A program made the position numbers and the translations under genes. The notes beneath the pieces are model-generated. The model was not told where the DNA came from and searched no databases. It saw only the letters and a list, made by a program, of their open reading frames with translations. From Vitis vinifera (lineage: Eukaryota; Streptophyta; Magnoliopsida; Vitales; Vitaceae), in NCBI RefSeq assembly GCF_030704535.1, contig NC_081822.1, forward strand, positions 36,460,001 through 36,524,000: a stretch of DNA of 64,000 nucleotides, in the 5' to 3' direction. Positions 3,203 through 59,500 of the stretch are shown in pieces. Numbering within the stretch: the first letter of the stretch is position 1; each line of letters begins with the position of its first letter.

Positions 3203-4246
3203 TATTACTCAGATATCGAAAATGATGAAGCATTCTGGTTGAAGAAATTATTTTCCGCTTATTTTAAACATATCAAGGTATTTATTTCTTAATAATATCT
3301 ATTTTTTTTATTATGTATTACTTTCATGCCTTCTAATTTATAATTAACGAACAAAATGTTAGTTTTAAATCTTATATTTTTAATTATTTTGGATAATTCA
3401 TCAATTCTTTATTACTATCATTAGATTAGTTTTTAAATAGAATAATTTTTTTAAAGTTATAAGTTACTTTAACAAGATTACTTATACATCTACACATATA
3501 TTTTTATTAAACTATTTTTCTTTTAAAATTTTCAAACTGCATGATATATTTTTTAATATTCAATAAAAAATTTTACAACAATAGTATTATCTTTCACAAT
3601 GTTGAAAATAATATGTTTTTGAGAATAAACTTTTATTTTATTCTATTTTTATTTAATTTTTAAATATTATTTCATGAAAATAATTATACACTAATAATTG
3701 AAAATCAAACATTTTAGAAAAGAACATGCACATGAATAACTAGATATTTGTGTATCAAACCCTACAAGTATAAATGTTTAAAAACCTAAGGGATTAAATA
3801 ATATATATATATATATATATCTGTATGTATGTATGTATGTATGTATTTATTTATTTATCTACGTTATCTACGTTTTAATTCTCAAAATCAAGAGATATAA
3901 AGTATTTGATACTAAATTATGTTGGAATTCTTATTATAATGTAATCTTTGAATTTATCTACTTAAGGCTCTCGCCATATCATCTATGTTCAACATCATAA
4001 ATTACAATCATCTTTCTATTTATTTATACTTCACTTCAATATTTCCAATTTCCAGATTGGTTTTCATGCAATAAAAGGATTATCATTAATGACTAATAAC
4101 AAGGTATTATATCTTACACATAATATTCAAATATTAATTTTTGAATTTATACTATAATTACTAACCTTAGTTGAAGCTACAACTTTATAGTCCAGAATAG
4201 GGTGCTACAGTCAAAGTTGATCTGCCAACTCATGGATGGTGGTAAA
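3203..4246 (+). other. Exon-like segments of unknown gene
   Basis: Three short open segments have plausible splice borders: SDIENDEAFWLKKLFSAY (about 3203-3277, followed by gtattt), IGFHAIKGLSLMTNNK (about 4056-4103, preceded by tttccag and followed by gtatta), and a stop-containing piece ending KVDLPTHGWW (about 4173-4246, preceded by tag). They might belong with the 1693-2225 fragment. I cannot assign a family, and chance is possible in such AT-rich DNA. Confidence 0.2.
3800..3859. repeat. Compound microsatellite (AT)n(GTAT)n(TTAT)n
   Basis: Three adjoining simple repeats, in order AT, GTAT and TTAT, are read directly. Confidence 0.9.
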
Positions 4247-4969
4247 AAACATTTTGACAAAACAAAATAAACAATGGTTTATTTTCTCAACTTATAAAAA
4301 TTAATTAATTTTTATCAGCATATCATTTATAATAACTCTAATTTCATTTTTTTTTTTACATTAATCAAGAATACAATTACTACATCTTTTTAATTTGATT
4401 TGACTATGGTACGTATCTCTTTATCGATAATATAACAATATTAATAAAATTACACATAAATTTATCTTTATACTATTTTTAGTTAGGTCAAACTTATCAA
4501 ACAAACTCATCAAAAAGACCATGAGATGTTAACTTTCTTAATAGGTATGCCCTATATATTATATATTTTTTTCCCAAATAAGTAAATTGAAATCTTACAA
4601 CCAAAACTTATCTTATTTTCAATCCATTTCAAGAAAAAGAAACATGAAAGAGAGAACATTAGTGAGGTAAGTATATGTTGGTATCATTACAAATGAATGT
4701 AACTTTCACAGTTTCCATTTTATAATAATAAAACTTATTTTTTTCAATGCAAATTATGCAGTTTTTTAAACATCGAGAGAAAAATGAACAAAAAAAAATC
4801 AAAAAATAATATAAGGTAATGTACCCTTACCTTATGTAGAAATATTTTGGCCATATATTTTTTTGAAACATCACTTTTCTATTTCAACTAATTCTTTTTA
4901 AATATGTGTAATTTTTTGTTTGAGTAAAAAAGAAAGGAATATATCCCAGACTATTGCAAAGACAAACAA

Positions 4970-5384: not shown

Positions 5385-6200
5385 TGCAATTTAAGGGGTA
5401 TTTTGTAATTAATAAGATTTAAAAGGGTATTTTTTATAAATAGTCATAATTTGAGTATTTTAAAATACTCGTATGTTTAGCAGTATTTTTTGAAAATAGT
5501 ACTCTTCAAATTATGAGTAATTGAAAAAGTACCATTTGAATCATGAGTAACTACAATAATACCATCCAATTTTTGAGTAGTTTTTGAAATATCCTAAAAA
5601 TATGAGTAATTGCACAAATATGTCTTAAATATTAAGTATTTACACGAAAATCCCTCAAGTTTCGACTATTTAAAAAAATACATTGAAAATGAGTATTTCA
5701 CAAATACCCTTAAATTATGAGCATTTAAAAAAATCCCAATAATATTCATTAATTATAAAAAATAATCAAATTATAAGTAATTACAAAAGTAGCCCCAATA
5801 ATATTAGTAATTACAAAATACCTTTTAAATTATGAGTAATTACATAAAGGTCCCTCAATTATTATTATTTACAAGATAACACTAAAATATGAGCAAATGC
5901 ATAAAACCATAAATTGGACAAATACACAAATACCCCTAAAAGTATTACTAATTGGACAAAAACATTTCAATTTATGAGTAATTACACACATAACCATAAA
6001 TTTATGAGTAATTACAAAAAAAACCCTCTAATTATGAATATTTACAAAAATACCCTTGAAATTATGAGTATTTTCAAGAAAATTACTTAAATTAATAGTG
6101 ATGCAAAAAACCCTCGAAATTACTCAAATTATGGATAATTACAAAAATACCCTTAAAATTATGAATAATTAAAAATCTTTTCAATTTTTGGTGTTTCCAT
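5385..6200. repeat. Degenerate ~30-bp minisatellite
   Basis: Repeated variants of 'aaattatgagtaattacaaa' followed by 'aataccctt' occur roughly every 28-32 bases with many substitutions and small indels. It contains no coding sequence. Confidence 0.7.
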
Positions 6201-6675
6201 AATTACCCTTTGAATTTGTGAGAAATTCTAAAACTACCATTCTATGTGCTGCACCTTCATCATTTCTCATCCTTCTCACTATGTGGCGCTATTCCATTGA
6301 CCCATTCCACCTTCTAATCTCAGCCATCCACCTTCATCAATGTAATGGCCCTTCCCATACACTTCAATGACAACCCATACCTACTTGTTTTATTGGTTCC
6401 TTATTTTAGCCGAACCACATTTAATCAATTTTTTTTCCTTTCTAATATCAAACCTACCCAACCTAAACCTAAAACTGAATCATTTTTTTTTTTAAATTTT
6501 CATAATATTTTGTTTGAAATTAATATTATCAAAATGAAAATGGGAATTTTAATATAATTCTTTTTAAATTCACTAAATTTACCAAAAAATCCATTTTAGG
6601 TATGAGTTATTATTTAAATAGTTTGATTTCTTTATATTATAAGTAATAACATCATTTTTTTTTTAGATTTTTATA
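6201..6675. other. Spacer between minisatellite and array
   Basis: There is a short open frame at 6345-6557 of low complexity with no recognisable family. Otherwise the stretch is AT-rich DNA leading into Helitron sequence at 6676. Confidence 0.4.
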
Positions 6676-6846
6676 CATCTCAACAATGGTGGATTACAAA
6701 ATGTATAGATTATGCTACAAATATGTTTATACCAATTTTATATTTCATCTATTTTTCTAGAAGTATAATGTCATTCCATTAATTTCATATATTAACAATC
6801 ATCATCTACATACATCTTCATGTGCAACGCACTTGCTTTATACTAG
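6676..6846 (+). mobile_element. Helitron 3' end heading the tandem array
   Basis: It matches 5040-5209: 'ctcaacaatggtggattac', 'aaaatgtatagattatg', then the terminus tttatactag (CTAG 6843-6846). This is the only array copy that extends leftward beyond 'caattttatat', so it marks the ancestral left flank of the duplication. Its hairpin is damaged (tgtgcaacgcactt). Confidence 0.6.
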
Positions 6847-8177
6847 TAGCTTTATGAGGGAGAATAGGACCACTGTAGAGGTATATGTTTGAGAGAGGAG
6901 GAGATTCTCCTACATGGCGACTGTTTTAAAGAGAGGGAATGAATCACTAAATTAGTTTGCATTATGGTGTTCATCTTTATATGGTGTTCCACATTATTTC
7001 TCAGTTGGGTGATTAAATACCCACTATCCCCAATTTCCTTAATATTGATTTTTTGGGTGTTAAATTAAACAGTGTTACTAGAGAAAACCTTCATTTGCTG
7101 GATGACTCTTTCTCCGTTTGTAGGGCACTTAATAGTGTTGACCTTAGTTGGGTGGTATGTATTTTCATTCTTAATGACTCAACCTTCAAGTTTAGTTTTG
7201 TCTTCATTATCTATCATTTCCTAGTGTTAGTTATTGATAGTTGATCTTTGCAAATTTTCAGAGGCCACTAGATGTTAAAGGGAATGAGTATGTAAGTGTC
7301 ACAATCTAGTGTTTAATGCGGGTCATACCCTTGAGGAACTTTTTCCTCATACCTGAAAACTACAACACTGCAATTCTCAACTCGTTCATCGATTTCGAGA
7401 ACTTACACGAAGGTATTGGCATGCATGGAATTGTAGAAAAAAGGTTTGTCCCTGTTAGGCCCTGATTATAATATTTTTTAATTATGGTTATGGAAATTTC
7501 AAATTCATAGTTTTCAAAATTTGCTTGTCTACAGTTAAGGTCATATACATTTCTAAATGCAGTTACCTAAGCAAGTAATAACCGATACAAGATGGGTGTA
7601 GAGTCTGACCCGATTGAATTTATGGCGTGGCTTCTTAATTCGCTTCATGTTGATCTAAGAACTTGATGATTATTTGAATGGCTTATAGTTTTTTTGAACA
7701 TGCTATTGGAGTGGCTTAAAGGGGTACAACATTGACTTAAATGCTGAGGCTTTAGGATTAAAAAAAAGGCAACTAGACTATCTAGTTTAGTCAATTGAGG
7801 AAAATATTATCCATTGTTTCCTTTATTTTTGTCTTGAAGTGTTGTGGATAGGGTCCCCTATGTCACCAGTCAGAGCTGCCCTGTGGGTGTCCGATCTTTT
7901 TGGACCAAGGGACATCGCATGCTCCTGTAAACCAAAATTCAATTCCAGATTATTATCCACTGCATAAAAGTAGACTCCTCTTAACAAAGATTATTTGCAC
8001 AGTTAAATCAACTACTAACCTAAATATACTTCTTGGCACTATCCCAAGCACCACCAATGTTGGAAGCATTGCAAAATATGATCGAAAATATATTTATATT
8101 GTTTATTGTTAGAAAACATGGACTTTCAGGAACATGAAATCAACGAATTTATTTTTTTTCATCCAGATCATGTATGT
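6733..8177 (+). repeat. Array unit 1
   Basis: 1445 bp. It is a subgroup A unit (with units 2 and 3) that keeps 'ttattg' in the intron after exon a, deleted in units 4-8. Its left flank is longer Helitron sequence. Confidence 0.8.
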
Positions 8178-9630
8178 CAATTTTATATTTCATCTATTTT
8201 TCTAGAAGTATAATGTCATTCCATTAATTTCATATATTACAATCGTCACCTACATACATCTCCACGTGCAACGCACGTGCTTTCTACTAGTAGCCTTATG
8301 AAGGAGAATGGGACCACTGCAAAGGGATATGTTTGGGAGGGGAGGAGATTCTCCTGCATGGCAACTATTTTAAAGAGAGGGAATGAGTCTCTAAATTAGT
8401 TTGCATTATGGTGTTCATCTTTATATGGTATTCCACATTATTTCTCAATTGGGTGATTAAATACCCACTATCCTCAATTTCCTTAATATTGATTTTTTAG
8501 GTGTTAAATTAAACAGTGTTACTAGAGAAAACCTTCATTTGTTGGATGACTCTTTCTCCATTTGTAGGGAACTTAATAGTGCTGACCTTAGTTGGGTGGT
8601 ATGTATTTTCATTCTTAATGACTCAACCTTCAAGTTTAGTTTTGTCTTCATTATCTATCATTTCCTAGTGTTAGTTATTGACAATTGATCTTTGCAAATT
8701 TTCAGAGGTCACTGGATGTTAGAGGGAATGAGTATGTAAGTGTCACAATCCAGTGTTTAATGCGGGTCATACCCTTGAGGAACTTTTTCCTCATACTTGA
8801 AAACTACAAACACTGCAATTCTCCACTCATTCATCGATTTCAAGAACTTACACGAAGGTATTGGCATCCATGGAACTGTAGGATAAAGGTTTGTCCATGT
8901 TAGGCCCTGATTATAATATTTTTTAATTATGGTTATGGAAATTACAAATTCATAGTTTTCAAAATATGCTTGTCTGCAGTTAAGGTCATATACATTTCTA
9001 AATGCAGTTACCTAAGCAAGTAATAACCGATACCAAATGGGTGTAGAGTCTGACCCAATTGAATTTATGACGTGGCTTCTTTATTCGCTTCATGTTGATC
9101 TAAGAACCTTGATGATTGTTTGAATGGCTTATAGTTTTTTTGAACATGCTATTGGAATGGCTTAAAGGCGTACAACACTGAGTTAAATGCTGAGGCTTTA
9201 GGATTAAAAAAAAAAAAAAAAAGCAACTGGACTATCTAGTTTAGTCAATTGAGGAAAATATTATCTATTGTTTCCCTTATTTTTGTCTTGAAGTGTCCAG
9301 GATAGGGTCCCCTGTGTCACCAGTCAGAGCTACCCTGTGGGTGTCCGATCTATTTGGACCAAGGGACATCGCATGCTCCTGTAAACCAAAAGTCAATTCC
9401 AGATTATTATCCACTGCATAAAAGTAGACTCCTCTTAACAGAGATTATTTGCATAGTTAAATCAACTACTAACCTAAATATACTTCTTGGCACTATCCCA
9501 AGCACCACCAATGTTGGAAGCACTACAAAATATGATCGAAAATATATTTATATTGTTTATTGTTAGAAAACATGGACTTTCAGGAACACGAAATCAACGA
9601 ATTTATTCTTTTCATCCAGATCGTGTATGT
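8178..9630 (+). repeat. Array unit 2
   Basis: 1453 bp, subgroup A. The Helitron hairpin is perfect (cacgtgcaacgcacgtg, near 8264-8280) with CTAG at 8287-8290. The A-run near 9208 is long. Confidence 0.8.
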
Positions 9631-21639: not shown

Positions 21640-23750
21640 CGCCTCTCTCTCATATAAACCAATATGAACTAGAAGTTCAAAGGATCATTCATTTGTAAAA
21701 TCTTGCAAATCAATTACCAGATGCATCATTGATACAAAGAAAATGACAAAGTCATATATCCAGACAACAAATACTCCAACATGGATTGATGTCCCTGTAT
21801 GATAGTTAACAAATAAATCCAAGATATGTGTGAAGCATGGTAGGCCTGTCAGCTCAAATGATGTAACTCCCCAGAAGAAGAGAACTCAAGAAAAACTTGA
21901 CAATCTAAAATAGACCATCAAAATGATTGATCAGTTTAAAATTGATAAATCTATAACCCCAGAAGAAGTACAAATAATGCAGAAAGCCTCTAAAAAGGCA
22001 CATGTAACTAAAAATTGTGAGATCTCAGTAAGTTATGTACACACGGGAGAAAAATGGGACTGAAATAATATTGTTATTAACAATATTTTTGCTTTCCAAG
22101 TGGCCTCCGATATCATAAGAAATTATGAAGATCCTTAACCATGAAATGTGGAATAATGACGACATAGAAATGATTGGCCAAAATGGAAAGAAGCCATGTA
22201 GGCAGAGTTAAACTCATTAACAACATGAGAAGTTTTTGGACCTGTAGTCCAAACACCTGAAGATGTAAAACCTGTTGGGTACAAATGGGTATTTGTACGA
22301 AAACACAATGAGAATAATGAGATCATAAGATATAAAACGCGATTAGTACCACAAGGTTTCTTGCAAAGACCTGATATTAACTACAAGGAAACATATTTTC
22401 TAGTCATGGACACAATCACATTTCGTTTATTGACTAGTTTGGTAGTCTCAGAAGGACTAGATATGCGTCTCATGGATGTTATTACAACATATTTATACAG
22501 ATCTATGGATAATGATATATTCATGAAAATCCCTGAAGGATTTAAATTGCCTGAAGCAAACAGTATAAAGCCTCGTAGCATGTACTCAATCAAGTTACAA
22601 CGATCCTTGTATGGATTAAAGCAATCGGGATGCATGTGGTACAATCACCTTAGTGAATACTTGATAAAAGAAGAGTATGTGAATAACCCTATATGCCTAT
22701 GCATCTTTATTAAGAAATCAGAAATTGGAATTGCAATTATTACAGTGTATGTTGATGACTTAAATCTTGTTGGAACTCTTGAAGAGCTCACAATAACAAC
22801 AAATTACTTGAAAAAGGAATTTGAGATGAAAAATCTTGGAAAAACAAAATTTTGTCTCGGCCTACAGATCAATCATTTTCCAAATGGAGTTTTAGTACAA
22901 TCAACATACATTAAGAAAGTTTTGAAGCGTTTTTATATAGATAAAACACATCCTTTAAGTTTTCCATGGTTGTCCGATCACTTGATGTGAAAAAAACTCA
23001 TTTCGTCTTTGCGAAAAATATGAAGAATTACTCAGTCTTGAAGTACCATATCTTAGTGTTATTGGTGCACTTATGTATCTTGCCAATTGTACACGTCCAG
23101 ACATTGCTTTTTCTGTCAATTTATTAGCAAAATACAATTTCGCTCCAACTCGAAGACTTTGGAATGGTATCAAACATATATTGTGTTATCTTCGCGGAAC
23201 TACTGATATGGGTCTATTTTATTCAATGGAATCAAAGCAACAATTGTTTGGATATGCAAATGTAGGATATATTTCAGATCCACATAAAGGTAGGTCACAA
23301 ACAGGGTATGTGTTTAATTGCAATGATACTGTTATTTCATGAAGATCTGTTAAATAATGATCACACCATCAAATCATTCAAAAATACTACCAGTTCATGA
23401 AACAAGTCATGAATGTATATGGCTAAGATCTATGATCCATTATATTCGGGAATCATGTGGACTCTTCTCTATCAAAGGTGACCTGATAATATTATTTGAA
23501 GATAATATTGCATGCATGCACAGATAGCAGGGGGTTATATTAAAGGAGATAGAACTAAACATATTTCACCAAAATTCTTTTATACACATGAACTCTAAAA
23601 GAGTGGTGAAATTGATGTGCAACAAATACGCTCAAGTGATAATCTAGCAAATTTATTCACAAAATCATTGTCAACCTTAACATTCAAGAAGTTAATACAC
23701 AAGATTGGAATGCGTCAACTAAAGGATATCGACATGAGGGGAAGTATGCA
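21640..23750 (+). mobile_element. Ty1/copia pol remnant (reverse transcriptase and RNase H)
   Basis: Degenerate pol text runs from 21680 (PDAFIDTKKMTKSYIQT). Reverse transcriptase follows: EVFGPVVQTPEDVKPVGYKW at 22210-22290; an open frame 22361-22990 with LQRSLYGLKQSG and YVDDLNLVG, the copia catalytic YVDD at about 22750. RNase H follows (GYVFNCNDT, then KHISPKFFYTHEL, IRSSDNLANLFTKSL). Stops and frameshifts break every domain. The catalytic box and the order RT-RNase H at the 3' end are copia, not gypsy or pararetroviral. The polypurine-like gaggggaagt at about 23737 precedes the LTR. Confidence 0.85.
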
Positions 23751-33927: not shown

Positions 33928-35740
33928 ATGACAACCGACAATATCGGTATTTATCGAATTGGGAAAAATCTCGCAAAAAATCTGGAAATATCCGTTGAAG
34001 GATTTTCCCCAAATTTTTATCCTTGGTTTTTTCTAGTGAAGTTATAGAAATTTTTAGTATTTTTCTATATTTGTTGAAAATTATAATTTTTTTTAATATA
34101 ATCTAAAACATTTTTTTTAATGTTTTTTTAGTAATTTTCTTGTTTAATTGTATATATTGTGGTAGTCGATCAATATCTAAAATTATATAATTTTTTGAAT
34201 AATAATAAGTAGTACTAATCATATTACAATTTATATAAATGGTGAATATGATACATTATTTAATTACCTTGTCATGCTTTTGATAAAATTTCTTGATTCC
34301 CTCGTCACTTAGATCCCACTAGGTTTTAGAGTTTGAGTTTGATTAGAAATGTCGTCGAAGGGTAAGACCTCTTTTTCGATGGAGAAAAAAAAAAAGATTG
34401 AATTGTATGATTATTTCAAGGCTATTACACATTATAAAAGAAACACTATTTTTTTCTTAATTTTTATATATAAGTTTTCATTTTTAGAAAAAACAAAAAA
34501 AAAAAAAACTATATACAAATGAACTCTAAGATAATGGTTTTTGTCATCTACAATTAAACGAGAAGACTTGTTGGAGTGCGATATATATCTATATATGAAA
34601 TTTTCATTTTTAATGATAAAATTGAAAATTTTCATTTTTGATGATAAAAGTAATGGCATATGTTCCATTAGTTTCAATAATTATAAAATATTCGCATTTT
34701 TATGAGGAAAAAATAATAATAATTTTGAAGTAATTTTGAAAACTCAAAAAAATAATAAAAGAAAAAAAAAATCTATGGTACCCAATTGATATTTATTCAA
34801 CTTTTAGTCCAGCATAAATTATAAATTAGTGTACAACCATTAAAAAAATGATTATTGGCATTTTCTTAGCTATTTGAGGTGGGAGTATCTCTATTTGAAA
34901 TATTTTTAATGAAAATGTTTTTTAAGTATTTTTTTTTAAATATACTATAAATAATTTTTCAAGTTTTAAAAATATTTCTTAAATTTTATCAAATACTTTT
35001 TTTTTTCCTAAAGCATTTTTTAGGTAGGCTAACAGTGTTTTTTAAAAACATGGCCAACTTTAAGTCAATATCAAATATGTCTCTCATCATCTTAATATCA
35101 AATATGTCTCTCATCATCTTGCAACCTTTCTATTTAAATTTGCATAAAATTAAAATTTGATCATTAAAGTGAAAGCCAAAAAGCAAAGAAACTAGGAGAA
35201 AAAGAGTAGTGAACCAAATTTAAATTTAACGCTTTAATGATCATAAAAATTTAAAAACCTAAACATAAAAAGAAATTATTTAAAAATTCATATATTTTCA
35301 AAATTTTCATTATTTATGGCTTTGTCATAAATATAAAAAAGAGAATTTAAAAAAATTTAACAACCTATTTGAGTTTGTGATAACAAAATTGTTTTTAAAA
35401 ATTAATGTCACTCTTTGATTATTGTTGTTGAAAAACAATTTTTTAAAATAAAATAATAAGTTTAATAACTTTAAAAAATAATATTAGCAATTATTAATTT
35501 TAAATTATTATTTATTTTAATAAAATAAATCTATTTTTATGATATTTATAAAATATATAATTTCTGATTTTATTAAAATATTATTATTCATATTTTATTA
35601 AAAATTTAAAAATGATATTTTTAATAAAACTTGAATAAAATTTATTTTATATGATATAAATTAAATTTATAATTTTCTTTTTAAAAAATCAAAATAAAAA
35701 ATTATTTTTAAAAAACAACTTTTAAAAAAAAAATTATAAT
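33928..35740. other. AT-rich spacer, no gene
   Basis: Long AT-rich DNA. More 'aatatcgg' text at 33930-33990 suggests a neighbouring fragment of the element above. A 26-bp tandem duplication ('aatatcaaatatgtctctca') lies at 35071-35122. Confidence 0.5.
35150..35345. repeat. Dispersed repeat, copy 2
   Basis: Same-orientation match to 30330-30500. Confidence 0.7.
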
Positions 35741-42391: not shown

Positions 42392-42712
42392 TCTGTAGAT
42401 TCTTTCAGAAAACAAGCAGTTTCAGAACGTCTTGTTAACTTCGTGCATAGGACTGGTTATGAAGTATCCCTGTTCTCAATTTTTTTTTTTTTCAGTCTAC
42501 TTGGTTGTGGAGATGCACGTATATAATATTCTCATGGAACAGAATTTTGTGGAAAGACGAAATAACATATCACAACTTCATGTTTACATTAACTGCCTTG
42601 GGAAAACACACCTTGACTCATCATAGTCACAACTCACAGGGAAGATCAAACTATAAACTTATTCTCAGAGACAAAACAAAGCTTTTCACCAGACAGCCTC
42701 TCTCAGGTCAAG

Positions 42713-43273
42713 TCAAAGTTCCTGTTTGGAGGTTTCACTTTTGAGCTTGGGGTTCTCTTCCTCATCTCCTCCAGCAATGCTGACCACCTTGGGACCCTTG
42801 ATCCGATCAGACGACAAGTTGGGCAAAGACAAGGTGAGCACCCCATTCTCAAGCTTGGCCTTAACACCCTCCAAGTCTACATTATTAGGCAGCCTGAACT
42901 GCCTCCAGAACTTGCCATAGGACCTCTCCATCCGGTGCCAGTGGTCACCTTTCTTCTCCTCTTCCTTCTTCCTCTCCCCGCTCACCCTCAGCACTCTTTG
43001 GCTCTCGTCCACCTCTATCTTCACCTCCTCCTTCCTCAGACCCGGGATGTCCATCATGATAACATGTCCCTCAGGTGTCTCCTTCCAGTCCACCCTGGCT
43101 GGAGAGGGGGCTAGGTCCGCATCCCTGTCGAGGCCCAAGGGGATCTGCTCCAGAACTCGGAATGGATCTGGGAAACGGTCCGACCAGATGTCCAACAGGG
43201 ACCCCTGGGTCGACCCAGCTGCAAGGAAGAACACAAGCAATAGCAGCAAAGAAGAAACAAGAGAGTGTTTCAT
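42713..43273 (-). CDS. Endoplasmic-reticulum small heat-shock protein (HSP22-class)
   Basis: Intronless gene of 186 residues. It acts as an ATP-independent holdase chaperone in the ER lumen under heat stress. An N-terminal signal peptide (residues 1-24: [24 protein letters not shown]) is followed by an alpha-crystallin domain (about 57-155: [40 protein letters not shown], then the [10 protein letters not shown] block) and an acidic tail ending KQEL, an ER-retrieval signal of the K/HDEL type. The length fits ER-class sHSPs (~180-195). The start is the first ATG, followed by the hydrophobic core. The promoter has a TATA box and a heat-shock element at 43333-43365. A truncated duplicate of its 3' end lies at 30150-30235. 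Confidence 0.93.
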
Positions 43274-43332
43274 TTTGGATATTGATGTTGATGTTGATGT
43301 TGTATTGATCTGGTGTGTATTGATGTCGTTTA

Positions 43333-43341
43333 CTTATAAAG
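43333..43341 (-). promoter_or_regulatory. TATA box of the sHSP gene
   Basis: 'cttataaag' on the plus strand (CTTTATAAG on minus) lies 60-68 bp upstream of the ATG at 43273, giving a leader of about 35 nt. Confidence 0.65.
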
Positions 43342-43352
43342 GCGGGGGTGGG

Positions 43353-43365
43353 TTCTTGAAAGTTC
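43353..43365 (-). promoter_or_regulatory. Heat-shock element, three perfect units
   Basis: ttcttgaaagttc reads TTCnnGAAnnTTC (minus strand GAAnnTTCnnGAA), a perfect three-unit HSF-binding site about 12 bp upstream of the TATA box. A further GAA..TTC cluster lies at about 43401-43422 on the minus strand (GGAATCTTCTTCC). Confidence 0.75.
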
Positions 43366-43419
43366 TGGTACATGGAAGAATGGATAGGAATGGAAATGGG
43401 AAGAAGATTCCAGGGGTTC

Positions 43420-43880
43420 TGAGATGGATCTATGCAATATGATGAGGTGGAAAGAGCAGCTGGCTTACATTAGAATGATGTTCCTGCAGGTTCCAGAGGC
43501 TTCTTTTACATGGCTACTACCCTCACTTCCAGCTTCTTGCGTGATGCCGCCTGGGGCCATGACTGGGCTGAGTCACCCAATTTCATACCAGTCGGGTCAG
43601 CCCAATCATGTTTCTGTCCCTGCTTAGCTTGGTCCATTAAGATCAATTCTGACTGGGCCAAACCCATATTGGGGATCTGAAGATGACCTACTTTAAGGAA
43701 TAGGCCCAATATTGGTTTGATATTTTAATCTGAGCCCGGGTCCCAAGTATTGAAACCCAAAAAACATCTTGTGTGAGATGCAAACCATTGTAAGAAGTGA
43801 AAGTTTTGGCATGTCAATCGTCAAGCAACTGAAAAGCATCATCAGTCGCGTAGTGTTAGATATGCAACTTGAATCCTATC
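43420..43880. other. Upstream region of the sHSP gene
   Basis: No gene is supported; open frames at 43424-43709 on both strands are short and unrelated to known families. GC content is higher than in most spacers here. Confidence 0.4.
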
Positions 43881-45233
43881 TTGATTCTAGGATTTTTCAT
43901 AAGTACAGTAATTGAAAAAAATTATTCTTAAATTATTATAGTAAAAAAAATTATTACAAATATATGATAGTTTTTGCTACCTAGGAGAGAGGGTGAACGG
44001 GTAAATTTTTTTTTTAACCAAAATAATCCTTTCAAAAGAAGATTTTATTTCCATTTAAAAAAAAAAAATTGAAAAGGGAAATCATCTCTTGAAGAGACGA
44101 TTTTCCCATTTTAAAAAAAAAATTAAAAGGGAAATCGTCTCTTGAAGAGAGATTTCCCATTAAAAATTTTTAATATTTTTGTTAAAAAATTCCAAATTAA
44201 AAAAAAAAAAAATCCTCAAGGGAAATCTTAGAAAAAAAAAATTTCTTTAATAATTTGGGATTTTAAAAAAAAAATATTAATTTTTTAATGAGAAATCGTC
44301 TCTTGAAGAGACTATTTCCCTTTTGGAAATTTTTTTTTTTTTTAATTTGGGATTTTTTTAAAAAAATATTAATTTTTTTTAATGGAAATCGTCTCTTGGG
44401 AATTTTTTTTAATTTCGGATTTTTTTTAATGGGAAATCGTCTTTTCAAGAGACGAATTCCCTTTTGGAATTTTTTTTTTTAATAATTTGGGATTTTTAAA
44501 AAAAAAATATTAACCTTTTTTTAAAAAAAAATATTAATTTTTTTTAATGGAAAATCATGTCTTGAAGAGACGATTTCCCTTTTGGATTTTTTTTTTATAA
44601 TTTGGGATTTTTTTTTTAAAAAATATTTATTTTTTTTTAAAAAAATATTTATTTTTTTTAAGAGACGATTTCCCTTTTGAAATTTTTATTTTATATTTTT
44701 TTTTTATAATTTGGGATTTTTTAAACAAAAAATATTAATTTTTTTAATGATTTTTTTTTCTTAATAATTTGGGATTTTTTTAAAAAAAAATATTAATTTT
44801 TTTAATGGGAAATCGTCTCTTGTCTCTTCAAGAGACAATTTCCCTTTTGAAATTTTTTTTTATTAAATTAGTTTCCAATTTTTTTTAATATTAATTTTTT
44901 CTAGGATTTTTTTTTAAAAAATTATTTTTTATAATATTAATTTTTAAAAAAATTTCAAAAGGGAAATCGTCTCTTGACGATTTCCCTTTTGAATTTTTAT
45001 TTTTATTTTTAAATGGGAATATCGTCTATTTAAGAGACGATTTCCCCTTTTGATTTTTTTTTTTTAAATGGAAATAAAATCGTCTTTTGAAAAGACGATT
45101 TTGGTTAAAAAAAAAATTATATGTTCACTCTCTCTCTTAGATAGCAAAAAATATCATATATTTATAATAATTTCTTCAATTACAATAATTTAAGAATAAT
45201 TTTTTTAAATTACTGAAAAGTCCCTTGATTCAA
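43881..45233. mobile_element. Mutator-like (MULE) non-autonomous element with palindrome array
   Basis: The element is 43890-45224 (1335 bp). It is flanked by ttgattcta (43881-43889) and ttgattcaa (45225-45233), an 8/9-base match of the 9-bp size typical of Mutator. Terminal inverted repeats are ~210 bp with small indels: the left runs from ggatttttca.. through 'tatatgatagtttttgctac' and 'gagagggtgaac', and the right complement runs gggacttttcagtaatt.. through 'tatatgatattttttgctat' and 'gagagagtgaac'. The interior is a series of hairpin-forming palindromes built from GGGAAATCGTCTCTT and its complement, separated by T- and A-rich runs. There is no coding capacity. Confidence 0.75.
44024..45103. 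repeat. Array of ~31-bp palindromes
   Basis: Full or near-full palindromes are at 44076-44107, 44129-44158, 44290-44330, 44431-44463, 44549-44579, 44807-44844, 44961-44986, 45015-45046 and 45070-45103 (mirrored by 44024-44052). Half units are at 44383-44400 and 44660-44674. Left arm GGGAAATCGTCTCTT, right arm AAGAGACGATTTCCC. Spacers share 'aatttgggattttttt' and 'aaaaatattaatttttt'. Confidence 0.85.
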
Positions 45234-47830
45234 TATGTTTGTATCTCATTCAATGACCCAAATTTCACTGTACACTTTATATGACTCATATCCAAACTTA
45301 ATTAACTAGTTCGATACCATAGATTTTTTTCCTACCACCTAAGGCATTGAGAACCATAGGGTTGTCCTTTTCTGCCTATAATTAAACTACGTGGGCAGCC
45401 TCTGACAGCCCGGCAGCTTAACCCAGGAACAAAATAGTCATTTTACACATCAAAACTGAAAACCCGATTCCTAAATGACTCAAACAAGGCAATGCAGTCC
45501 GCTGCCAGGGATCCTAATAAGAGTAAGGTATAATGCAAACTCTCTCCAAATATATCAAGAACTCTCTCAAGACATTAAATACATAATAAACTAGCCGTAT
45601 TAAGTTTATTAGTCATTCACAAATGGGGAATTCTGTTGCACTAAAGTAACGAGTGCTGAAAAATCATCTCAAATATCACATACATGATGCATGATACATC
45701 CAAGTAGTTTTATGGGCATAAACAGTGATGGTGATCAAGCGTGAGCTCCAGAAGTCTCAAGAGCACTGCAAGCAGGACATGTTTTGGCAGGGAGTAAAGC
45801 ATCAAGGATAAGCACCAAGAGGGGGGATGGGGGGTTTTTGAATGTCATTCATTTCCCACGCCCCAAACAATGAAGAAAAACTCTAGAGGATGGGGCTCAT
45901 GGGTTTCACCCCTCACTCCAAAACTTGTGAATGGTCCCACCATTAGCCTCTCTGGTCCCTCTCCCACTGTCAGTCCTAGTGGTGCCACTTGCCCTAGTTA
46001 TGGGTATGGAGGAGATAAATGCATGGCAACCTTCGATTCTTCTAGGTTTCTCCCACCAATCCTTTAAACTCCTCTTCCAGGCTCCAACCCATGAGAGTAC
46101 AGGCAGCTTGTGATCTTGTTGAGTTTATAAATTGACATGACAATGAATTTTTTTTAAAAAAAAATTTTTGTATAATATATAACTTATATTTCTTTTCGAA
46201 GCCATCACTCATTTTTAGTTAAATGACTACCTAGTGCAGAATCATCTTCTCTTTTGATGTATGTTGTGCACTTAACCTTCAGAATGAGCCAAAAGAGATA
46301 GATCGCCATATACATTAATAGATGTAACAATGACCTTTTTTTTTTTTTTTTGAGAGAGAGAGAAATGGATTTCCTTTTCTGGGTTGTCCACAAGCTGTAT
46401 GCTGACCAGTGAGTGGCTGCCACCTCAGGTTTCCAGTCCATGTCACGCTATAAAATTCTCCATTTCTGTGCATATGCGACTTGTCCAAGATGGAAGTTGG
46501 ACCAACTTGTCAGCTGACACCCCATCACTTACCATAAGAAAGAGATGCTTCTGGACTGGAGTATGTCCTTGGCCTGTTGTGAAGATAGAGAAGCTTTCCA
46601 TTTATTGTCAGATTCGCAGCTACAGTCCATAATGTTTTTGATTCCTTCTGTTTATTGTTTACCTACCCTTCTCCCCAGAAATATCTTAATCAATTACCCT
46701 ACACAACTTGACCCCTCCCAAGCATTCTCATAAAACATTGCATTTGTGCTATCAAGCTAAGTAAAAACTCGATGAAAGTATTTTGCCCCTATATCAGCAC
46801 CAGCACAACCTCAGGATGACCAGCAAATGGAGAATGTTGGGGTATGATAATATCGCTCTTAAGCTTAGGAATGGGATATTGGAATGATAATGATGTCAAA
46901 TGTCATAAAATGCTTGATTTACCCTTATTTAATATCAATTGGTTTTCAAATGAGATTATTGGATTGATATCAGAATCAAGGGTCATGGGTTTAAGTCATA
47001 GGGAGCCTTATGTTAGGGGAGGGATTCTTGGAGCTCTCTAGAGCTATGATAAGATAATCAAAACCCAATCTAAGACGATGCATAGCTGGCATTCAAATTG
47101 GTGTGGGAGTCAACTTGTCATGTAATGAGGGCAACATGCATGAATCTCTAGCCTTTTCTTTCTTGAAGTCATAAAAGCATTGGCCTATTGACAGAAGGAA
47201 AGCAAACCATGACTTAAAAAGGCATTGTAGGACTTGATGTGTAAGACTAAATAGCAAAAGCAATTTATGATAAGCTAGCATTGAGATCATCTGAGTGCCA
47301 CAACAGCAGGAAAGAAAAAGGAGGAAAGTAAAACAGGAAGATACAGGATTCATCCTAAACCAAAATTTTAGTAGTTATTATACCAGAACTTAAGTTTAAT
47401 TCTTTGAATACAGATATATAATGAAGTTCCATGCAGCCTATTCTGCAACTTACCCCAGCTTCACTAGTGGGAAACTTGGAGTTTATAACTAATGGTTGAG
47501 ACTTATGGGTAGATGCTGAGTAATTGGGAACGTTTCATAATAAATAAGGGGCCATTTGGAATCCCTAAAGGAATGTCTTAACCATATAGGACAAACTGGT
47601 TAAATCAATGATGTTTTGCTCTTCATACCGACACATGGGACCACAGTGGCACCATAATTTCTTGTGAGATCAACTGATCATTCTGGGACCACCGTACATC
47701 ATTCCTTGACAATGTTACCAACTTAATCCTTTTCCTTTCCCACCTCATGTGAAAATGAAACGAGTCCTTTTGGTCGTTGATCCATATGGAAATCCTTCCA
47801 AAATCTTATACCTCATTTATAAAGAGAGGA
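45234..47830. other. Intergenic region between sHSP-side MULE and BBX gene
   Basis: No supported gene. Several open frames of 60-86 codons (45870-46113, 46205-46632, 47093-47353) show no family features. A T-run (46336-46350) followed by a GA repeat occurs near 46350. Confidence 0.45.
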
Positions 47831-56598: not shown

Positions 56599-59500
56599 AT
56601 GGGGAGGAGGAGACCAGAAGAATATGAGCTGAATGAGGTGGAAGATACCATCACAGGCTCTGTTGGGAGCAGAATGCGTCTGGTTTCCAGCGAGCTTGGA
56701 CTCAGGAAGACTGCTTCCACCCTCTGCGCTCGTGGAGGCTTTGTCATCGATCCTAGATCAAGGTTCGTACTCGATCGATATCTTCTCTTCTTGCTCTACA
56801 CTTTTATGCAGTACAGTAGTGCCATTTTCATTAATGTAACAGTACCATCCATGGAACTTGAGCTAGTTAGCTGATGAACCCATTGATAGAGATGGAGTTT
56901 TTAGATATGTTCAATGAAGTTTACTGGATTATGGGTTTGTTGATGAAGGAAAGAAGCATAGATGGGAAGGGATAAGAGTAATTTAGATTGTTTATGAACT
57001 GCAGATTGTGCTATGATCTATAGAGAAGAGGCCAATACACACTATATTTAGAAGAAGGTAGCCACAAAACTTTGGATTATGGTTAATTCCTTTCCAAATC
57101 CATAAGAATGTCACTTTAGGCGTGGTCTGATATGGATTTCCATTTTCATTTTTTAACCATCCAACTGACCAAGATATGGACAAAACAGTTTCTTAACTAA
57201 AGGAGTTGTAATATATCCAAAAATGGTGTGACACGTAGACTATTTGTGTAAGGGCAAACTTTAATGCCACATAAAACTATATAAGGTTTTAATGTGATTT
57301 GCTCAGTAAAATCTACACCCTCAGATGAAAAAATCAATCCACCATATCATAAAAAATAATATAACAATCTTAAGGATAGAAGGAGAAAAAAAAAACCATT
57401 TGTTAGGTTTACCATTTTATGTTTCTTTCATTCTTGCCCATCTTTATTTTGTAACTCTTATCGTGATCTATAATATCTAATAATTTTTCATACAATATTA
57501 AATCTTTACGGATGTTTTTAGGATTTAACACACTATTCAACAAAAATGATATAAAAACTAATGTGTGATTGACAATTATTATTCAAAACAATTTTTTTTT
57601 GCCATCCAAAGTAAAAAATAGGTCGAATACATGTTTAAAAATTAAAAAATAAAAAATGATATTCCGTTGTTAAAAATAAAAAAGAAGATTATGTTTGAGA
57701 AGTGTTTTTAAAAATAATTCTTGAAAAATAATATTTTAGAATCATTTAAAAATATATATTTTTTAATGTCTAAAAATTTTAAAAAAATTTAACATGTTTT
57801 CTGTATTTTTAAAAATAAATTTTATATACAATGTTTTTTTATTCATTCTCTATATTTGTATAATTATTTTTAAAAATAATTTAAAAATATGAAAATATGA
57901 AAACAATTAAAAGATTTTTTTTTTTTAAATATCATGTTTTTTGTTTAGAATAGAAAATGTTGTTATTTTCTTTCTTGGAGTATGATTTTTTATTTTTTAT
58001 TTTAAAAAAAACAATTATCAAATATGACAGAGAATTATCAACTAATTTAGTGTTCAAGGGCTCATTGAGATGTTTGCTTTCCCATTCTAAGTGAATCACT
58101 CATTAATTAATATTCTCCCATTTGCAGATTCTGCAACTGTTGGCAGCAGATCATTTTCTTATGGTCCATATTCTCATCCTTCTTCACACCCTTGGAGTTT
58201 TGCTTCTTCAGAGGCCTGCCAGACCATCTAGTCAGTCTTGAAAGCGCACAGATCATCTTCCTAGTTGATGTGGTCCTCCAGTTCTTCGTCGCCTACAAAG
58301 ACCTTCATTCCTACAACATGGTGTATAACAGAAAAAGCATTGCCATACGGTGAGTATTGTTTTTATAATATTTCACATGGAACAGGAGAAAAAAGTTTTT
58401 GAAAGTATATGCTTATATACTCCTAATCTTATAGACACATGCATTTTAAAGTCTTAAGGATTCCTTGGATTCAGAATGAAAATATCTACATGGTTAGGAG
58501 CATATCTTTACAATTCTACAAATGTCAGACTTAAAATCATGGACTTGGGTACTAATTGAAGACAATTGTGCTTGTGGGCGTCACATGCAGCTATGCAAAG
58601 GGCAGTTTCTTGGTGGATTTTCTGGGGTGTGTGCCATGGGATGCCATCTACAAGGCCTCAGGGAGAAGGGAAGTGATGAGATATATGATTTGGATCAGAC
58701 TGTATCGAGCAAGAAAGGTGGCACAGTTCTTCAAGAGAATGGAGAAGGATGTGAGGATCAATTACCTGTTCACTAGGATAGTGAAGCTGATAACAGTGGA
58801 GCTGTACTGCACACACACGGCTGCCTGCATCTTCTACTACTTGGCCACCACATTGCCACCTGCAGAAGAGGGGTATACATGGATTGGAAGCTTAACTATG
58901 GGAGATTACAAGTATATCAATTTCAGAGAGATTGATTTTTGGACCAGATATATCACTTCACTCTACTTTGCAATTGTCACCATGGCCACAGTTGGTAAGT
59001 TGTCTCTCTCCCTAGTTTCATTACCCAACTTAATTGCAAGCTCACGAGGTGGGAAAAAAAATCAAGGCTTTGGCCATGGTACCAAGATAAAAAGTTACCA
59101 CCAATTAGGTATTTTATGTGCACTTGATCCTATCTCAGTCTTATTGCTTTGGGTTTGTGTTATATTATTTTGCATGTTGCACGTGGTCTCGTTACTTTAT
59201 ATTTGTTCTCTTTACTTTATATCTAATCTTATTATTTTGAACTATAATTTCAATTCTTGGAACCTTAACCCCATATATTTATACCTTTAAGGGTCCAAAT
59301 TTTATCATACACTTTCAAACTGTATTGAAAGTTCAGTATGGTAGCAAATCGATACTATAGGTGGTTTTTTTTTTTTTTTTAAATTATTATTACTTAATTT
59401 GAAAACTCATTTAAGCCTTGATTCTTTCGAGAAGTCAAAACTCTATTTCAAGGAAGAGAGTTTTTGGATGTATTTGGGTAATTTTAGGTTTCAAAAAGAG

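Follow-up and report, generated by a model that had tools for sequence, protein, structure and literature searches.

The window analysed here, a 64,000-nucleotide stretch of the Vitis genome (C18:36460001-36524000), contains a segment whose interior repeats one palindrome many times over, and the locus raises the questions of what kind of element this segment is, how its array arose, and whether the palindromes serve the element. The segment, at positions 43890-45223, is a 1334-bp non-autonomous Mutator-like element (MULE) with a G+C content of 19% (computed on 43890-45224), and the longest stop-to-stop frame overlapping it has 71 residues. Its termini, GGATTTTTCA...TGAAAAGTCC, are common to family members and are flanked by a 10-bp target-site duplication, CTTGATTCTA on the left (43880-43889) and CTTGATTCAA on the right (45224-45233), identical at 9 of 10 positions. 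The first-pass annotation had read this duplication as 9 bp, a reading that was dropped because 10 bp fits the family, other members of which also carry 10-bp duplications. The same annotation gave the inverted ends as ~210 bp; inverted ends are real, but their extent differs. The outer parts of the terminal repeats (43890-44060, plus strand; 45050-45223, minus strand) are ~88% alike over 155-164 bp, and a composite inverted repeat (43906-44345, plus strand, against 44780-45215, minus strand) continues at 75.7% over 461 columns, so that the ends are composite and longer than the outer repeats, with similarity reaching ~440 bp per side.

Members of the Mutator superfamily typically have terminal inverted repeats of 100-500 bp and target-site duplications of 9-11 bp. 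The hallmarks of a MULE found here are long terminal inverted repeats, a 10-bp duplication and a MURA-type transposase in the family, the window copy itself being without one. Composite terminal repeats and internal repeats varying in number, the hallmarks of Foldback elements, were found as well. In comparison with Pack-MULEs, which carry captured host gene fragments, the window element has short frames and an interior to which an array block of the family itself corresponds, and terminal-repeat queries matched the window element only at its ends and through the palindromes, which does not reproduce the feature of MULEs with tandem terminal repeats. Two further BLAST matches to the terminal repeat (35673-35738 and 57705-57751) are A/T-rich, contain no palindrome and were dropped. 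The element lies near an sHSP gene of the Hsp20 family (42713-43273, minus strand), upstream of which a perfect heat-shock element, TTCTTGAAAGTTC (43353-43365), and a TATA-like stretch are located within 43340-43365. The element starts 524 bp beyond this heat-shock element, in agreement with its earlier placement ~500 bp upstream of the sHSP promoter. Next after its own cluster, the sHSP matches Vitis vinifera entries at 97% and 95%, which places the host in Vitis, probably V. vinifera. Elsewhere in the window, 22361-22990 is a Copia-type reverse transcriptase remnant (RVT_2, 7.4e-34).

In order to count palindrome arms, the 15-base arm GGGAAATCGTCTCTT was aligned by dynamic programming, allowing up to 3 edits. 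This detected 17 arms in the element versus 4 in the other 62,500 bases examined, and simulated elements (60 second-order Markov runs) contained a mean of 0.47 and a maximum of 3. On reading, nine full or nearly full palindromes were recognised: P2 (44076-44107), P3 (44129-44158, right arm with a 1-bp deletion), P5 (44290-44320), P7 (44431-44461), P8 (44549-44579), P11 (44807-44844, extra central bases), P12 (44961-44986, central deletion), P13 (45015-45047) and P14 (45076-45102). To these are added three halves, P4 (44219-44234), P6 (44384-44402, right arm lost) and P9 (44660-44674, left arm lost), and the decayed P1 (44032-44050). P1 lies in the left terminal repeat, and P14, a perfect variant palindrome AAAATCGTCTTTTGAAAAGACGATTTT, in the right one, bearing out the earlier remark that even the terminal repeats contain the palindrome. 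When a length of exactly 31 bp and no more than 4 mismatches in either arm were required, six palindromes were found in the window element. The palindromes are housed in degenerate tandem units, those detected by Tandem Repeats Finder having periods of 53 to 109 bp. The interior is an array in which copies of a 31-bp palindrome have decayed, and the initial description of a MULE-type element filled with such an array holds, with 17 arms against at most 3 in simulations and nine full or nearly full copies. Frames of the palindrome used as protein queries gave no match at E 10, and searches of viral contigs, prokaryote genomes and plasmids gave none either, as expected for a plant element.

The family was sought in a grape genome of 495.6 Mb (21 contigs) by two routes. 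The 15-base arm occurs at 295 exact places, and its reversed control at 0. From the first 100 of these places (contigs C1-C5), 20 stretches were fetched, mostly chosen for clusters; as the choice implies, the 10-base arm core was present in 20/20, 2 to 19 times each. Matches to the terminal repeat were found at both ends of 13 of the 20, one of them (L045) matching on its right side only by the inner part. L045 also contains, at 3868-4691, a non-array stretch with what looks by eye like a retroelement-like frame, captured or nested inside a family member. Target-site duplications were scored in 13 elements, namely the window element and 12 arm-chosen ones (excluding L045), with ends fixed after the flanks had been seen. 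A 10-bp duplication with 9 or 10 positions equal was found in 9/13 (window, L032, L034, L035, L037, L038, L039, L042 and L044), the probability for a random pair of 10-mers to match at no more than 1 mismatch being 0.00076, and no such duplication was found in the remaining L033, L036, L043 and L049. Since L037 and L038 share both flank and duplication, they represent one insertion that was later duplicated, giving 8/12 independent insertions. On C2 the two (L037:2532-4415 and L038:2800-5208) are separated by ~25 kb and reflect a segmental duplication that postdates the insertion. A further right terminus in L038 adjoins the same flank, which looks like a doubling of the array end.

Arm statistics from arm-chosen loci are biased by the choice, and elements chosen by their terminal repeats are the fairer sample. 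The second route was independent of the arm, using as query 43890-44060, which includes the decayed P1 and contains no 31-bp palindrome. At least 40 genome matches were obtained (40 of 383 candidates scored), up to 90% identical besides the query itself, and outside the window 9 pairs could be recognised as close two-ended elements, of which 8 were fetched. All 8 contain exact-length palindromes, 6-11 each, so that the palindrome is found with these terminal repeats elsewhere in the genome, and the absence that would have refuted the first-pass annotation does not hold. A 10-bp duplication with at most 1 mismatch was present in 5/8 (L055, L056, L057 and L060 at 10/10, L054 at 9/10), and L058 has a 9/9 match at 9 bp; among these 8, L053 gave no 10-bp match, and the right end of L059 could not be placed and no duplication was seen. 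Over 17 elements of the family that were listed, the number of exact-length palindromes ranges from 3 to 25. The window element is thus a non-autonomous member of a Vitis Mutator-like family with long terminal inverted repeats and non-coding arrays of the 31-bp palindrome, and the target duplication of this family is 10 bp at many copies. On C5, family members flank an R2R3-MYB-like gene (L051:33-3353, 5413-7562 and 7633-8935; MYB by eye from the frames). Two of these insertions have duplications of 8/10 and of 10/10, the latter in a TA-rich repeat, and capture of the gene was ruled out, the insertions on each side being separate.

These duplications also bear on the superfamily. The flanks of the window element have an exact 8-bp string, CTTGATTC, in common, so that from the window alone an 8-bp duplication, and with it a non-MULE superfamily with long inverted repeats such as a hAT-like one, could be read. 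However, other members have 10-bp duplications, the terminal repeats exceed 150 bp, and a relative that shares these termini carries the gene for a MuDR transposase; hAT identity was dropped on the family duplications and this transposase, and any such affiliation is highly improbable.

The relative in question, a 13,129-bp element on C5 (6246803-6259931), carries 25 palindromes in three blocks, and both its ends match the left terminus of the window element (85.4% over 178 columns and 82.4% over 131). Its minus strand encodes a 620-residue frame with PF10551 (2.8e-18), PF03108 and PF00872, a MuDR-type (MURA) transposase, and its plus strand a frame with PF10536 (plant mobile domain, PMD) that faces the transposase, the middle palindrome block being situated between the two convergent genes. 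One stop splits the transposase frame from a preceding 226-residue frame. No target duplication was found for the C5 element, which may therefore be rearranged; taken with the stop, this leaves both the intactness and the simplicity of the copy in doubt. The best match of the window's interior array (44242-44864, plus strand) is the C5 intergenic block, at 75.9% over 664 columns, and the window's left terminus agrees with a C5 end at 83.6% over 219 columns. When eleven other elements were set against C5, their matches likewise fell in its end regions and middle block, with few or none elsewhere; the exceptions are short matches of L049 and L051a in the PMD half, and of L034, L044 and L049 near the 5′ side of the transposase.

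The C5 transposase has at least 74 matches in the genome (71 of 1132 candidates scored), at least 10 of which, among the candidates scored, are full-length at 88% or more, and two of those ten have stop-free 860-residue frames (C9:1848369 and C7:150030). The surroundings of 4 of the 10 were inspected directly, and those of 2 more by exact-arm positions. An array predicted directly past the transposase 3′ end was found, with 9 palindromes on C9, 9 on C7 and 3 on C13, giving a block at this position in 4/4 elements inspected (C5, C9, C7 and C13). Stretches further out contain 14 and 15 palindromes (C9), 17 and 1 (C7) and 3 (C13, left end), the single palindrome on C7 being in L065, on the transposase 5′ side. 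Element termini were present in the fetched stretches at C13 (left) and C7 (right), and neither at C9. Two transposase matches on C3 have exact arms ~2.1 and 0.8 kb beyond the 3′ end. Six distant full-length matches (68-76%; C1-C4), at C2:17136950, C3:816456, C3:10483787, C3:11199612, C3:16987966 and C4:11446771, have no exact AAATCG-type arm nearby. A PMD gene predicted beyond the C9 array was also found, facing the transposase and 97% identical to that of C5 (PF10536, 3.6e-55), and the order of transposase, array and PMD gene is therefore seen in both copies inspected for it (C5 and C9). PF10536 and PF03108 occur jointly in two annotated Vitis proteins, P0131 and P0157, in keeping with this gene neighbourhood; the models probably join the PMD gene of such an element to its transposase.

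From these comparisons, the window element is very probably a gene-less member of a Vitis MULE family with palindrome arrays, derived from gene-bearing relatives. Its ancestor would have been a transposase-bearing element that lost both genes and kept its terminal repeats and array, and the family transposase would have inserted the present copy in trans, leaving the 10-bp duplication. The array had at first been regarded as an oddity with no counterpart in a standard MULE; it is genuine, but the same blocks occur in the non-coding DNA of the transposase-bearing relatives.

Two types of arm, GGGAAATCG and GGGAACTCG, are separated by A or C at position 6. Three stretches, L061 and L063 (C9) and L066 (C7), hold their 14, 15 and 17 palindromes within 2.5-3 kb, all of AACTCG type and often in steps of 90-120 bp. 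Substitutions were counted in 190 palindromes from 23 loci against the nearer of the two types, the limit of 4 mismatches per arm lowering all rates. C>T and G>A changes make up 286 of the 463 arm substitutions and also affect cytosines that are not in CG. A/T positions differ at 33/2923 (1.1%) and G/C positions at 430/2777 (15.5%); in the 8 terminal-repeat-chosen elements the rates are 1.09% of 920 and 10.8% of 970, respectively. By comparison, 35 terminal ends differ from a single consensus at 11% of A/T and 29% of G/C positions, and from two group consensuses at 7.9% and 24%. At seven of the eight arm A/T positions, 27/2660 differ (7/882 in the terminal-repeat-chosen elements). If position 6 is counted as a change, the arm A/T rate becomes 4.9% in arm-chosen and 9.7% in terminal-repeat-chosen elements, near the 11% of the terminal repeats. 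Seven arm A/T positions are thus steadier than the ends that define the element, and the eighth has switched between two states, mostly in both arms. In a group whose termini, one or both, agree with the consensus at 68-72%, the arm consensus equals that of the others, but these loci were picked by that arm. The C/G arm positions decay in a manner consistent with methylated DNA, which is also expected of an ordinary C-to-T bias, and the steadiness of the arms could instead reflect homogenisation between arrays.

The two types also allow changes within arrays to be followed. In 16 loci with both types, the type switches inside a palindrome in 25/166 cases and between palindromes, over spacers no longer than 130 bases, in 9/95, and in hybrid palindromes the neighbour-facing arms agree in 25/29. 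Given that a spacer exceeds the palindrome centre several times in length, the palindromes hold more than their share of switch points. This pattern is suggestive of units that run from one palindrome centre to the next, with exchange taking place there, although several switches are common to related elements by descent and the independent events are fewer than the counts. In the stretches from C9 and C7, 47/65 palindromes have no mismatch among their inner 13 pairs, versus 72/239 in L031-L060 (without L046), and the window copy contains halves, a central deletion and central insertions. Recombination or slippage that breaks within the palindromes probably alters array length, and the copies would then decay mainly by C-to-T change, consistent with cytosine methylation. 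Slippage between palindromes, put forward by the first-pass annotation as a route of expansion, stays plausible, as does recombination.

Such a process might be all there is to the arrays. They could be a functionless by-product, in which palindromes extrude, break at the tip and recombine, and a palindrome once caught multiplies and then decays, a possibility of some weight to which we give less than an even chance. The halves, central deletion and central insertions of the window copy speak for it, as do the switches inside palindromes and the agreement of neighbour-facing arms in hybrids. It accounts less readily for the seven of eight A/T positions that stay within ~1% while the terminal repeats drift, or for a block past the transposase 3′ end at all four elements inspected, and because many switches are shared by descent its independent events number fewer than those counted.

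The palindromes might alternatively act through RNA, transcripts of the arrays forming dsRNA that feeds 21-24-nt small RNAs and so silences the family. The whole element is predicted to be a long foldback (MFE -477 kcal/mol), in which, for either strand, the ends pair into a single long duplex; none of 20 shuffles folds as well as the inner array (z -7.6), and a lone palindrome forms a stable hairpin (-22 kcal/mol). The excess of C>T or G>A among arm substitutions (286/463) is expected of heavy methylation, and of ordinary C-to-T bias too. Weak matches of Rfam miRNA models to hairpin pairs in the element (best E 0.00025) point in the same direction, but none of the 22 Rfam matches in 42500-46500 attained its gathering score (best 35.3 bits versus a cut-off of 111). 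In whole-array folds, few palindromes pair with themselves (0/6 in the window, 1/11 and 3/9 on C7, 2/9 on C9), because copies pair with one another. The chain of hairpins expected of a transcript in the first-pass annotation is accordingly rejected as the predicted fold of the whole RNA, the minimum-energy structure being mainly one long terminal-repeat duplex with cross-pairing of palindromes; local or co-transcriptional hairpins may still form. Compensation between arms was rejected as proof of RNA structure, since changes beyond position 6 are mostly one-sided, with small excesses at positions 1-3 and 13. The terminal repeats alone would yield double-stranded RNA, so that palindromes are not needed for it. 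With no exact palindrome of the window copy pairing with itself in the predicted fold and arm changes mostly uncompensated, an action through RNA is unlikely.

The reading towards which we lean, tentatively and by analogy with other MULEs, is that the array offers many copies of a dyad-symmetric docking site to a protein encoded by the family, either MURA or PMD. Docking may aid recognition of the element or counter its silencing, and short elements that keep the array would then stay visible to the machinery. Binding of the MURA transposase and binding of the PMD protein are equal candidates. Known systems were compared through the available parts of the papers cited here, chiefly their main texts. 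The closest analogue for an array serving as a binding platform appears to be VANC21, which is described as binding a 9-base motif that recurs in the non-coding tandem repeats of VANDAL21, with loss of methylation as the consequence (PMC5735166, PMC10398659). In the accounts available of VANDAL21 and VANDAL6 of Arabidopsis, the non-coding blocks are likewise fast-changing, motif-bearing tandem repeats, with motif types that vary from one subgroup to another. The present family thus shares with VANDAL/VANC the placing of motif arrays in non-coding DNA, here towards the ends and between the genes. The VANDAL motifs, however, are given as 8-9 bases, with the word 'palindrome' absent from the main texts of both papers; their terminal repeats are described as degenerate, whereas the long ones of the present family are recognisable at both ends; and the second gene found here is a PMD gene.

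Other MULEs resemble the family in part, as far as the available text of each paper describes them. Among Mutator/Foldback elements, Muta1 and related Aedes MULEs (PMC5225508) and Tm1 of Meloidogyne (PMC3169594) have terminal repeats with variable short tandem repeats, and non-coding derivatives that share their termini; their repeats are ~9-15 bp, lie within the terminal repeats and go with duplications of 8-9 bp. Muta1 is described with a 10-bp terminal palindromic motif and no array (PMC5225508), and Tm1-HH with a histone hairpin motif and no array (PMC3169594), and subterminal repeats of the Muta1 type offer a structural parallel for transposase binding (PMC5225508). MULEs with tandem terminal repeats (PMC3310237) are similar in the repetition of their ends and in the slippage proposed for it, but they repeat the terminal repeat itself, whereas the present family repeats an internal palindrome and its spacer. 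Tetris of Drosophila virilis (PMC4079207) is foldback-like with tandem repeats in its terminal repeats; its units are 220 bp and are not called palindromes in the main text, and autonomous copies are reported as not found. In grapevine, the Mutator families Mutavine-1 to -18 (PMC2528002) are Vitis MULEs with long terminal repeats and transposase, as is the present family. According to the available text, Mutavine duplications were always 9 nt when found, compared with 10 here, and the terms 'palindrom', 'hairpin' and 'foldback' are absent from its main text. The parent family may be a Mutavine, Mutavine-2 (11 kb, TIR 180) and Mutavine-18 (16.2 kb, TIR 230-263) being considered by size only, and it may be catalogued in Repbase under a MuDR name. 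Five arm strings had no occurrence in the main texts of the literature searched, and no palindrome-array MULE family was seen among the papers listed for MULEs with palindromes, hairpins, foldback structure, grapevine or PMD.

One specific form of the docking reading concerns the PMD protein. In the parts available to us, the MAIL1/MAIN paper suggests, as speculation, that MULEs with a captured PMD gene may use it against silencing, and it names no DNA target for this idea (PMC5418596). That the arrays are the cis-targets of the PMD protein, making up a second MULE system, of independent origin, for anti-silencing or self-recognition, is rather improbable on present evidence; if true, such a PMD system would be built on a dyad-symmetric motif and would act in trans on gene-less copies like that in the window. 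The slow-changing palindrome block that two Vitis copies have between their convergent PMD and transposase genes is also retained by gene-less copies, which provides a concrete candidate motif. The 295 exact arm places within one genome, moreover, are natural replicates for the growth and decay of palindrome arrays in a plant nucleus.
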